Positions 7,599 to 11,104 of a stretch of 57,890 nucleotides of DNA are shown in pieces (within the stretch, counting starts at the first letter, position 1; the number at the start of each line of letters is the position of its first letter). The position numbers and the translations under genes are program-made. This DNA comes from Bacteroidota bacterium (GTDB taxonomy: Bacteria; Bacteroidota; Bacteroidia; UKL13-3), in assembly GCA_947456185.1 (NCBI GenBank), contig CANGPW010000006.1, forward strand, positions 1 through 57,890, read 5' to 3'. The notes beneath the pieces are model-generated. The model searched no databases and was not told where the DNA came from. It saw nothing but the letters and a program-made list of their open reading frames with translations.

Positions 7599-8180
7599 AT
7601 GAATATAAATAAACTATTGACTCATTTTAGCAATTACATTCCTTTAAATGAAGAAGAAATTATTGAATTATCAAATAGAGTTGTAGAAAGAAGTATTAAA
7701 AGAAAACAATTTATTTTGCAAAAAAATGATATTTGCAACAATTATACATTTATCGTTTCAGGTTTATTTAAAATGTATACAGTTGATAAAAATGGAGTTG
7801 AACATATTTTACATTTTGCATCTGAAAATGATTGGATTTGTGACATCAATAGCTTTCATAACAAAAAACAAAGTTCTCTTTATATAGATGCAATAGAGCC
7901 ATCAATAATTATACAAATTGACAATTCAAATTTGATGTACCTTTTTACACATTATCAGAAATTTGATAGAACCTTTCGTGTTTTAATTGAAAATAAATTT
8001 ATAGAACTTGAAAATAGAATTTTACAAAATATTAGTTCAAAAGCAGAAGAAAGATATCAATTTTTTTTAGAACAATATCCTAATATTTGTAACCGTTTAC
8101 CAAATGTACTTATAGCTTCCTATTTGGGAATTACTCCTGAATTTTTGAGTAAAATTAGAAATATTATTTCTAAAAAATAA
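7599..8180 (+). CDS. Crp/Fnr-family transcriptional regulator next to rhodopsin
   Basis: A 193-residue protein with the Bacteroidota Crp/Fnr layout. An N-terminal cyclic-nucleotide-binding-type beta-roll (about 20-120; NNYTFIVSGLFKMY at the typical GxxR/K turn) leads to a dimerisation helix (about 125-150) and a C-terminal winged helix (RLPNVLIASYLGITPEFLSKIR, about 164-188). The phosphate-binding cassette of true CRP (GExxxxxxRSA) is replaced by DINSFHNKKQSS, so cAMP binding is doubtful. There is no cysteine cluster for an FNR-type iron-sulphur centre. It is 103 bases upstream of the opsin on the same strand, with dyads in between. I infer, but cannot show, that it controls itself and/or the opsin. 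Confidence 0.85.
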   Translation: MNINKLLTHFSNYIPLNEEEIIELSNRVVERSIKRKQFILQKNDICNNYTFIVSGLFKMYTVDKNGVEHILHFASENDWICDINSFHNKKQSSLYIDAIEPSIIIQIDNSNLMYLFTHYQKFDRTFRVLIENKFIELENRILQNISSKAEERYQFFLEQYPNICNRLPNVLIASYLGITPEFLSKIRNIISKK

Positions 8181-8283: not shown

Positions 8284-9000
8284 ATGGAGCATTTAAAAAT
8301 TGCAAGTGATAATTACGTAGCATTTACGTTTTTTATCGGAACAATGGCCATGATGGCCGCATCAGTATTCTTCTTTTTCGAATTAGGTAACACTAATGCA
8401 AAATGGAGAACATCAGTTTTAGTTTCTGGATTAATTACTTTTATTGCAGCAGTTCATTACTACTACATGAGAGGTTACAATTTAGCAACAGGTGATTCAC
8501 CAACATTCTTTAGATATGTAGATTGGATTCTTACAGTACCTTTAATGTGTGTTGAGTTTTATTTAATCACTAAAAAAGCAGGTGCAAAAATTTCTTTACT
8601 TTGGAAATTAATTTTAGCGTCACTTGTAATGCTTGTTACCGGATATTTCGGAGAAACAATTGACAGAGGAAGTAGTGTAATGTGGGGAGTAATTTCTGGA
8701 GCAGCATATTTCTACATTGCATACTTAGTATGGTTTGGTGAAGTTGCTAATTTAGCACAAACAGCTGGAAAGCAAGTAGCAAAAGCAACAAGAGTATTAG
8801 CTTGGTTCGTTTTAGTTGGTTGGGCAATTTATCCATTGGGTTACATTTTAGGAACTCCAGGTGGTTTATTTGGAATTCAATTAGTTGCAGATCCTGCAGC
8901 AGCTTCTCATGCTATGGACATTGTTTATAACATTGCTGATGCAATTAATAAAATTGGATTTGGTTTAGTAATTTATACTTTAAGTAGAAACGAAGACTAA
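8284..9000 (+). CDS. Proteorhodopsin, green-tuned light-driven proton pump
   Basis: A seven-helix, 238-residue microbial rhodopsin. Helix C reads RYVDWILTVPLMCVEFYLI: R77, D80 (proton acceptor), T84 and E91 (donor) give the DTE motif of outward proton pumps. M88 is at the position of GPR Leu105, where Leu or Met gives green and Gln gives blue absorption. H58 matches the His that pairs with the acceptor. In helix G, D219 is the second counter-ion and K223 (DAINKIGFG) binds retinal. G135 in helix E aligns with xanthorhodopsin Gly156, the opening for a carotenoid antenna, where bacteriorhodopsin has Trp138. It is preceded by a Crp/Fnr gene and followed by a terminator and then the retinal-making fusion. 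Codon use is like its neighbours. There is no signal peptide, as usual for non-cleaved Bacteroidota opsins. Confidence 0.97.
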   Translation: MEHLKIASDNYVAFTFFIGTMAMMAASVFFFFELGNTNAKWRTSVLVSGLITFIAAVHYYYMRGYNLATGDSPTFFRYVDWILTVPLMCVEFYLITKKAGAKISLLWKLILASLVMLVTGYFGETIDRGSSVMWGVISGAAYFYIAYLVWFGEVANLAQTAGKQVAKATRVLAWFVLVGWAIYPLGYILGTPGGLFGIQLVADPAAASHAMDIVYNIADAINKIGFGLVIYTLSRNED

Positions 9001-9020: not shown

Positions 9021-9063
9021 AAAAGGGGGGTTTCTTTCATCAAAGAGGAACCCCCCTTTTTTT
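9021..9063 (+). terminator. Strong terminator or attenuator between opsin and crtY-blh
   Basis: AAAAAGGGGGG pairs with CCCCCCTTTTT, extended inward by TTTCTTT/AAAGAGGAA-type pairing around a CATC loop and followed by T7. It lies 20 bases after the opsin stop and only 13 bases before the next gene's TTG, leaving little room for a promoter. The downstream gene probably depends on read-through. Confidence 0.9.
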
Positions 9064-9076
9064 AATTAAAATTACA

Positions 9077-11104
9077 TTGGAAAATCAAATTCAAACTTCT
9101 TATATTGATTATTTATTTGCTGGAGCCGGAGCTTCGGCAATATTGTTGTTAATGAGTTTGGAGGAACGTGGAATGTTAAACGGAAAAAACATTGTTATTA
9201 TTGATCCTGATACCAAATTAATAAACGATAAGACCTATTGTTTTTGGGAAAATTCTGATGATTTAATTGTAAAAAGATGTAAGCATTTAATTAGCCACCA
9301 ATGGGAAAAAGTTAGCGTAAATTCAAATAAACCCCAACTAATTCAACCAATGAAATATTTCTATATTTCAAGTTTTGATTTGTATAAAGAATTACATAGG
9401 ATTATTGAAAAATATAACATACTACGCATTCATCAGCCTGTTTTATACTTAAAAAAATCGGAACATGGAATAACAACTAACACACCCAATGAAACTTTTC
9501 TTTCAAAAATAGTTTTCGACAGTCGCCCCCCTAATTATTTAACACTTAAAAAAAATGAATCACATCTACTTCAATCTTTTTTAGGTTATGAAATAGAAGT
9601 TGAAAAGAAAATACAGGATTATAATTGGGTGAATTTAATGGACTTCGATGTTGAACAAAATGATTCAACTCAATTTGTATATATACTTCCATTTAGTGAA
9701 AATAAACTTTTGGTGGAATTAACTCGATTTGGTGTTTCACAATTGATGCAAAAAGAAGCTGAACCAATCCTTGATAAATATATAACTAAGCATTTTGGAA
9801 AATATAAAATAGCAGCTATTGAAATTGGAAGTATTCCTATGAGTAATGCTGAGATTGTATCTGATACAATACCCAATATTATTTCAATTGGAGGAAGGTC
9901 AGGTGCTATAAAACCAAGTACTGGTTATGCTTTTAAAAACATGTTTAAACATGCAGAAAATATTGCAAATAGTTTGCAAAATATGCACCAACTAAAAGTA
10001 ATCAATAACTCCACTAGGTTTAAATTTTACGATAGACTGTTATTATTAATTTTAAGCAATCACCCATATTTTGGAAAAAAAATCTTTGAGGTTTTATTTC
10101 AAAAGAATAATGCAAAAAATGTGTTACAATTTATGGATGAAAAAACTTCCATATTTCAAGATATTAAAATATTAAGTTCATTGCCCTTCAAACCATTTCT
10201 GAAAGCATGGAAGTTTGATATAATTGTAAAGTTTAAACCATTCATTATTACCATTATATTAATTACTTTAGCCTTAGGATTATTAATTTTAAATTCAGCG
10301 TTTCCCTCCCCTTTTAATTGGACTGAATCAATACTTTTTACATTAGGATTGATTACTGTTGGAATTCCCCATGGAGCAGTTGATCATTTATTAGAAAGTG
10401 GAAATTTACACGGTAATGTTAAGCTAAATTTTATATTAAGGTATTTGGGTGCTGCTTTCATCTACTTTATTTTATGGCTCCTTTTTCCAAATATTGCTTT
10501 ATTGTTTTTTCTTATTTATTCTATTTGGCATTTCGGACAAGCAGATATGAATGAGTGGGGAATTAAAAATAATAATGTTTTTAAAAACTGGATTTGGGGT
10601 GGGACTTTATTGGGCATTATTTTATATGGACATTCAGTAGAAACCAATATTATTTTAAAAAATATGGGCGTAGAACTATTTCAAATAAATGAAAAATCCG
10701 GTAAGGCTATCGGTATTTCTCTTACTTTTTTTGCTTTCATTTGGGGATTTTGGGAAAGGAAATTAGGAATGATTTTGAGTTGTATTTTTTTAGCAATAAG
10801 CATCCAACTTCCTTTAATTACTTCATTTGGTTTATACTTTATAGGTCAACATAGTATTCATGGTTGGTGTCATTTAAAAAAAGGTTTAAATGTTAATAAT
10901 ACTTCCCTTTATTTAAAAACGCTTCCATTTACGTTAGGAGCATTTTTATTGTTTTTTACCCTATATTTTTGTATTGAAAAAGGATTATTAGTAGCCATTA
11001 AAAGTCAAATAATTATTGTTTTTTTTATATTTACATCATGCATTAGTTTTCCTCACGTTTTAACTATGAATGTATTTTATAAAAACACTTTTAAATCAAA
11101 CTAA
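9077..11104 (+). CDS. crtY-blh: Fused lycopene beta-cyclase (CrtY) and beta-carotene 15,15'-dioxygenase (Brp/Blh)
   Basis: One uninterrupted 675-residue frame holds two complete enzymes. Residues 1 to about 383 are CrtY: dinucleotide-binding start (YLFAGAGASAILL, 13-24), TYCFW (53-57), FDSRPP (147-152), IGGRSGAIKPSTGYAF (271-286) and a normal CrtY C-terminus ending near FLKAWKF. Residues about 386-675 are the membrane-embedded Blh domain: GIPHGAVDH (H432, H437), SIWHFGQAD (H485), GQHSIHGWCH (H595, H599) and SFPHVLTMN (H660). The H485/H595/H599 spacing (110 and 4) equals that of iron ligands reported in marine Blh. CrtY cyclises lycopene to beta-carotene; Blh cleaves it to two retinals, the cofactor of the opsin just upstream. 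The start is TTG, with no ATG before residue 26, inside the nucleotide-binding fold. It converges with trhO, 9 bases apart. The domain calls are firm; the fusion is unusual. Confidence 0.95.
   Translation: MENQIQTSYIDYLFAGAGASAILLLMSLEERGMLNGKNIVIIDPDTKLINDKTYCFWENSDDLIVKRCKHLISHQWEKVSVNSNKPQLIQPMKYFYISSFDLYKELHRIIEKYNILRIHQPVLYLKKSEHGITTNTPNETFLSKIVFDSRPPNYLTLKKNESHLLQSFLGYEIEVEKKIQDYNWVNLMDFDVEQNDSTQFVYILPFSENKLLVELTRFGVSQLMQKEAEPILDKYITKHFGKYKIAAIEIGSIPMSNAEIVSDTIPNIISIGGRSGAIKPSTGYAFKNMFKHAENIANSLQNMHQLKVINNSTRFKFYDRLLLLILSNHPYFGKKIFEVLFQKNNAKNVLQFMDEKTSIFQDIKILSSLPFKPFLKAWKFDIIVKFKPFIITIILITLALGLLILNSAFPSPFNWTESILFTLGLITVGIPHGAVDHLLESGNLHGNVKLNFILRYLGAAFIYFILWLLFPNIALLFFLIYSIWHFGQADMNEWGIKNNNVFKNWIWGGTLLGIILYGHSVETNIILKNMGVELFQINEKSGKAIGISLTFFAFIWGFWERKLGMILSCIFLAISIQLPLITSFGLYFIGQHSIHGWCHLKKGLNVNNTSLYLKTLPFTLGAFLLFFTLYFCIEKGLLVAIKSQIIIVFFIFTSCISFPHVLTMNVFYKNTFKSN

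Follow-up and report, generated by a model that had tools for sequence, protein, structure and literature searches.

The window, that is the whole stretch of DNA which was analysed (57,890 nucleotides from a Bacteroidota bacterium), contains a rhodopsin gene followed on the same strand by one long reading frame in which a lycopene cyclase domain and a beta-carotene dioxygenase domain are joined. The features are the following:

8284..9000, + strand: proteorhodopsin-type rhodopsin of 238 amino acids, PF01036, with D80-T84-E91 as predicted proton-pump motif
9021..9060, + strand: putative terminator-like hairpin with a T-run, between the rhodopsin and the fusion
9077..11104, + strand: fused crtY-blh gene, 675 amino acids, TTG start, stop codon included
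9107..10204, + strand: CrtY-type lycopene cyclase domain (PF05834), residues 11–376, conserved glutamate E214 at 9716–9718
10187..10300, + strand: junction helix predicted by AlphaFold2 to be continuous, residues 371–408, from the CrtY C-terminus to the first Blh membrane helix
10346..11077, + strand: Brp/Blh beta-carotene 15,15'-dioxygenase domain (PF15461/TIGR03753), residues 424–667

The frame from 9077 to 11104 on the + strand is free of internal stops. Its TTG start lies 76 nucleotides behind the end of the rhodopsin and agrees with an ATG at the equivalent position of a homologue of 85% identity (L020). Pfam profiles assign residues 11–376 to Lycopene_cycl (E 8e-40) and residues 424–667 to BCD (E 5e-33), both far over the cut-off. 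The original prediction of a complete CrtY and a complete Blh in one open frame beside a rhodopsin was therefore borne out by the matches to PF05834, PF15461 and, for the rhodopsin at 8284–9000, PF01036. Its further statement that the motifs of both activities are intact agrees with the alignment, in which the key residues of cyclase and dioxygenase are conserved without variation across 67 fused proteins.

A homologue scan with one genome per species, covering about 85,000 prokaryote species, yielded 79 loci. In 78 of these both domains are contained in one intact frame of 652–723 codons from stop to stop, and the 79th ends at a contig edge; identity to the window protein ranges from 85% down to about 35%. 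The region of residues 375–395, in which a stop or frameshift in relatives had been named as the mark of an artificial joint, is thus open in 78 of 79 independent loci. As the source genomes are mainly metagenome assemblies, a sequencing or assembly error joining two genes might be suspected. With an identical junction in that many loci from separate records and in 30 genomes of the window's family its probability is negligible, and an assembly artefact was rejected. The single-chain CrtY-Blh is hence confirmed as a natural protein.

The lineages named in the records are Chitinophagaceae, Crocinitomicaceae, Schleiferiaceae and other Bacteroidota, nearly all of them metagenome genomes, and a few fused loci labelled as other phyla are probably mislabelled or mis-binned. 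In the window's family a BCD domain was found in 35 of 64 genomes, 30 of these with an intact fusion and a rhodopsin. In a sample of 395 genomes across the phylum the fusion occurred in 5 of the 59 genomes with a BCD domain, in frames of 650–696 codons. The fusion is a minority form across the phylum, yet widespread in aquatic Bacteroidota. No relative of it was found in viral contigs, and among plasmids there was no full-length match, the ten best matches covering the cyclase half only. Two decaying copies were observed, one with a 193-amino-acid Blh remnant in a genome without rhodopsin (L174, G015) and one a fusion whose frame is broken within the Blh domain (L176, G456). A 958-amino-acid frame with a BCD domain in genome G285 was rejected as a fusion, its N-terminal part being, as read by eye, a high-GC open frame with a CrtYcd-like gene in another frame.

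The cyclase half scored 137.5 bits with PF05834 (cut-off 23.4) and covered positions 1–377 of the 380 in the profile. It stayed below threshold with the NCBIfam CrtY equivalog TIGR01789 (46.9 bits versus a cut-off of 215.2) and with TIGR01790 (91.3 versus 209.5). By its sequence it would be classed as a CrtY-type member of PF05834 which is distant from the NCBIfam CrtY models and is not a TIGR01789 equivalog. E214, which we take to be the catalytic glutamate, is invariant in the aligned fused and standalone CrtY sets together with T282-G283-Y284 and other residues, and the GxG of the FAD site, the IPM motif and the TGY motif are kept in both. CrtY-type cyclases act at the membrane, so that this half is not a plain soluble enzyme and the earlier description of it as soluble was inaccurate. 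A sequence search of solved structures with the fused profile gave no match. The 50 Foldseek matches listed are FAD enzymes, geranylgeranyl reductase and squalene epoxidase among them; all fell on the CrtY half and none on Blh.

The dioxygenase half scored 124.9 bits with TIGR03753 (cut-off 95.25) and 115.2 bits with PF15461 (cut-off 28). Four histidines, H432, H485, H592 and H660, do not vary among the fused proteins and scarcely do so in other Blh. H519 and W597 show no variation in the fused clade, and there alone; H599 is nearly invariant in it as well. In Blh 66A03, from an uncultured marine bacterium, His21, His78, His188 and His192 were reported to be essential (Kim et al. 2009, cited in PMC9227343). 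By family motifs, the 66A03 sequence itself lying outside the alignment, their counterparts would be H432, H485, H592 and G596. Iron ligands had originally been placed at 485/595/599, a set which copies the published spacing His78/188/192, while the alignment puts His188 at H592 and His192 at G596. Residue 595 is asparagine in 50 of 83 fused proteins and histidine in 12, so the set 485/595/599 is not the iron site. The position equivalent to His192 is glycine or alanine in most fused proteins and histidine in none. Loss of His192 was rejected as a hallmark of the fusion, as flavobacterial Blh adjoining rhodopsins likewise have no histidine there. In 23 of 50 standalone Blh, many of which adjoin rhodopsin or crtY, the column of residue 596 holds serine, asparagine or glutamine, and the accepted four-histidine site may therefore not fit the whole family. 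With a glycine here and serine or asparagine in many standalone Blh, the fourth histidine is no universal family mark. In the Blh half H519 or H599 may replace the usual fourth histidine, in an iron site specific to this clade.

Between the two domain envelopes of the homologous loci only 8–14 residues are found. Standalone CrtYs stop some 5–20 residues past a conserved PFLKA-like motif, and the fused ones continue directly into the first Blh helix. The AlphaFold2 model gave a pLDDT of about 90–95 across the junction, and for a 38% identical homologue the helix was modelled with a one-residue break.

In separate trees of the two domains, which were quick and unrooted, all fused proteins lie on one side of a supported branch (SH-aLRT 100 for Blh and 95 for CrtY). 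Both trees are compatible with a single fusion event and subsequent descent. Unfused crtY and blh stand in the same order as in the fusion, and in most of the clusters examined the stop of the first meets or slightly overlaps the start of the second. Two of them (L204 and L205) have the order rhodopsin, crtY, blh, and in the tree no standalone CrtY is closer to the fused ones than that of L204. In many other Bacteroidota the rhodopsin is paired with a standalone Blh, and crtY is not adjacent. In one genome of the window's own genus (G009, locus L173 on contig C199) the gene behind the rhodopsin is a standalone Blh, which lacks a CrtY domain and is cut off by the end of the contig. This partial Blh grouped with the fused proteins in an earlier Blh tree, and a later split is therefore possible; its row was omitted from the later tree. 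The arrangement could be a splitting of the fusion or a replacement. In another genome without rhodopsin or Blh (L178, G022:C15) a standalone CrtY adjoins CrtZ and CruF and apparently serves a general pigment cluster.

The rhodopsin is closest to proteorhodopsins, and proton pumping is predicted from D80, T84 and E91, which were read from the sequence as aligned to proteorhodopsins. The rhodopsin adjoins the fusion in most homologous loci, whatever its orientation: 41 have it immediately ahead of the fusion and in the same direction, 10 shortly behind it, 2 about 2 kb behind it, and 9 have the two genes diverging. In 18 loci the fetched stretch, which in some cases ends at a contig end, contains none. 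Rhodopsin is present in all 30 genomes of the window's family with an intact fusion. Across the 64 genomes of this family rhodopsin and BCD occur together in 33, rhodopsin only in 3 and BCD only in 2 (p 2e-12, kinship ignored). The RPE65 type, the other known family of retinal-forming enzymes, is absent in 63 of the 64, which makes the fusion the only recognised retinal source in most. Where the rhodopsin lies upstream, 42 of 51 loci have a comparable hairpin in diverged sequence; the strong one of the window escaped the standard terminator scan because of its overlong loop. Such a hairpin between pump and enzyme suggests that more mRNA is made for the pump than for the enzyme. Directly upstream of the rhodopsin a Crp/Fnr-like regulator gene (7599–8180), found among the fetched loci in the closest relatives only, may control the pump. 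On a contig of 3.8 kb (L135, G000:C118) the window's genome has one more rhodopsin gene, which diverges from a standalone Blh. This Blh groups with the Blh of another family (f27) which shares the divergent layout, and a second Blh of this kind was seen in no other genome of the window's family; the contig is either a recent transfer or mis-binned.

Further carotenoid genes of the window's genome lie on other contigs. One (L134) carries crtI-crtB. On another, contig C122, genes for a CrtZ-type hydroxylase and for a CrtYcd-type lycopene cyclase of 226 amino acids, which is unrelated to CrtY, lie with the end portion of a CruF-type gene. Since its CrtZ recurs at 97–98% identity in three genomes of the genus, and such relatives also group CruF with CrtZ and CrtYcd, this contig belongs to the window's genome. 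Irrespective of rhodopsin, CrtYcd is found in 58 of the 64 genomes of the family (28 of the 30 that have the fusion and 30 of the 34 others), and in fusion genomes it usually adjoins crtZ and cruF. With a separate CrtYcd in 28 of 30 genomes the fusion constitutes a second cyclase, tied to rhodopsin. In Algoriphagus CruF, CrtYcd and CrtZ have been assigned to monocyclic flexixanthin (PMC10784355), and Klassen termed the CrtYcd of this genus a monocyclase (PMC2889829). By this analogy the best view of the fused CrtY is that of a second, rhodopsin-bound cyclase which would make two-ringed carotene for the cleaving domain. CrtYcd may here itself make beta-carotene.

As it adjoins a pump which needs retinal and is carried by many aquatic Bacteroidota, the fusion is read as a dedicated retinal-making enzyme and not as a sequencing error. 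Judged by its two domains, it is probably a bifunctional membrane-bound enzyme which leads from lycopene to retinal and is dedicated to rhodopsin. The N-terminal flavoprotein domain would close both rings of lycopene to give a presumably two-ringed product, and the C-terminal non-haem iron domain would cleave beta-carotene, supplying two retinals to the pump whose gene lies just upstream. Other carotenoids of the cell would come from the separate route of CrtYcd, CrtZ and CruF, which by analogy with Algoriphagus may yield monocyclic pigments. A private cyclase beside the cleaving enzyme could in this way keep the retinal branch apart from the hydroxylase/hydratase branch. Against a strict need for the fusion stands G009, where rhodopsin and a standalone Blh occur with no CrtY domain. 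True channelling, in which lycopene enters, retinal leaves and beta-carotene crosses the helix-linked domain interface, bypassing the hydroxylase/hydratase branch, is a plausible hypothesis, though less likely than not; if it held, cells with mainly monocyclic pigments could still make retinal.

It is quite possible, if short of probable, that both domains are active with no metabolic insulation, the stop between touching genes having simply been lost and beta-carotene mixing with the cell pool. The fusion would then persist through its fixed 1:1 ratio and single membrane address. The unfused genes which already touch or overlap in the same order, in L204 and L205 behind a rhodopsin, fit such an origin, as do the trees, which allow for a single fusion with later descent. 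That widely diverged relatives retain the fusion, and that exceptions in the family are few, would argue against it, as would the presence of a second cyclase and CrtZ, which would compete for a free beta-carotene pool. As this explanation differs from the preferred reading of a dedicated lycopene-to-retinal enzyme solely on insulation and channelling, the confidences placed in the two overlap. That one domain is inactive and the other alone matters, as in a dioxygenase that retains the cyclase as a membrane part or for binding substrate, is improbable. The missing His192 equivalent in all fused proteins, a CrtYcd which could provide cyclised carotene and the missed NCBIfam CrtY equivalog cut-offs would speak for it. 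The key residues of both domains are nevertheless invariant in the 67 fused proteins, those of the cyclase being common to standalone CrtY, and with RPE65 nearly absent retinal must in most genomes come from the Blh domain. Post-translational cutting of the chain into separate CrtY and Blh is very improbable given the short gap between the domain envelopes and a junction predicted as a confident continuous helix.

Retinal supply underlies rhodopsin phototrophy. Beside the pump, a clade widespread in aquatic habitats has united the final two steps in one protein, and it has kept the other cyclase for other pigments. The fusion allows substrate channelling from one membrane enzyme to another to be tested clearly, is a potential single-gene tool for converting lycopene to retinal and provides a simple sequence marker of such phototrophs in metagenomes.

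The fusion joins two known enzyme families, and a fusion with another type of cyclase is already known from a eukaryote (PMC10016063). The architecture had been proposed to be undescribed, and in the open-access full-text literature, subscription papers and preprints being outside this scope, no description of a bacterial CrtY-Blh fusion was found. The protein of the protist Thecamonas trahens (CrtI-CrtB-CrtYcd-Blh, XP_013761525.1) likewise has a C-terminal Blh on one chain with a lycopene cyclase, and its authors suggested direct conversion to retinal (PMC10016063). It differs in its eukaryotic origin, in the unrelated CrtYcd type of its cyclase and in two more enzymes on the chain, and is an independent fusion. 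Fungal and thraustochytrid fusions (phytoene synthase with CrtYcd; CrtIBY) also unite carotenoid enzymes on one chain, but with other partners and no cleavage enzyme. Blh 66A03 is of the same family with counterparts of His21, His78 and His188 present here, but is standalone and has His192 in place of the glycine. Unfused rhodopsin/crtY/blh clusters link the same two enzymes to rhodopsin, but as two proteins; L204 and L205 share the gene order of the window, whereas the RCA operon has blh before crtY.
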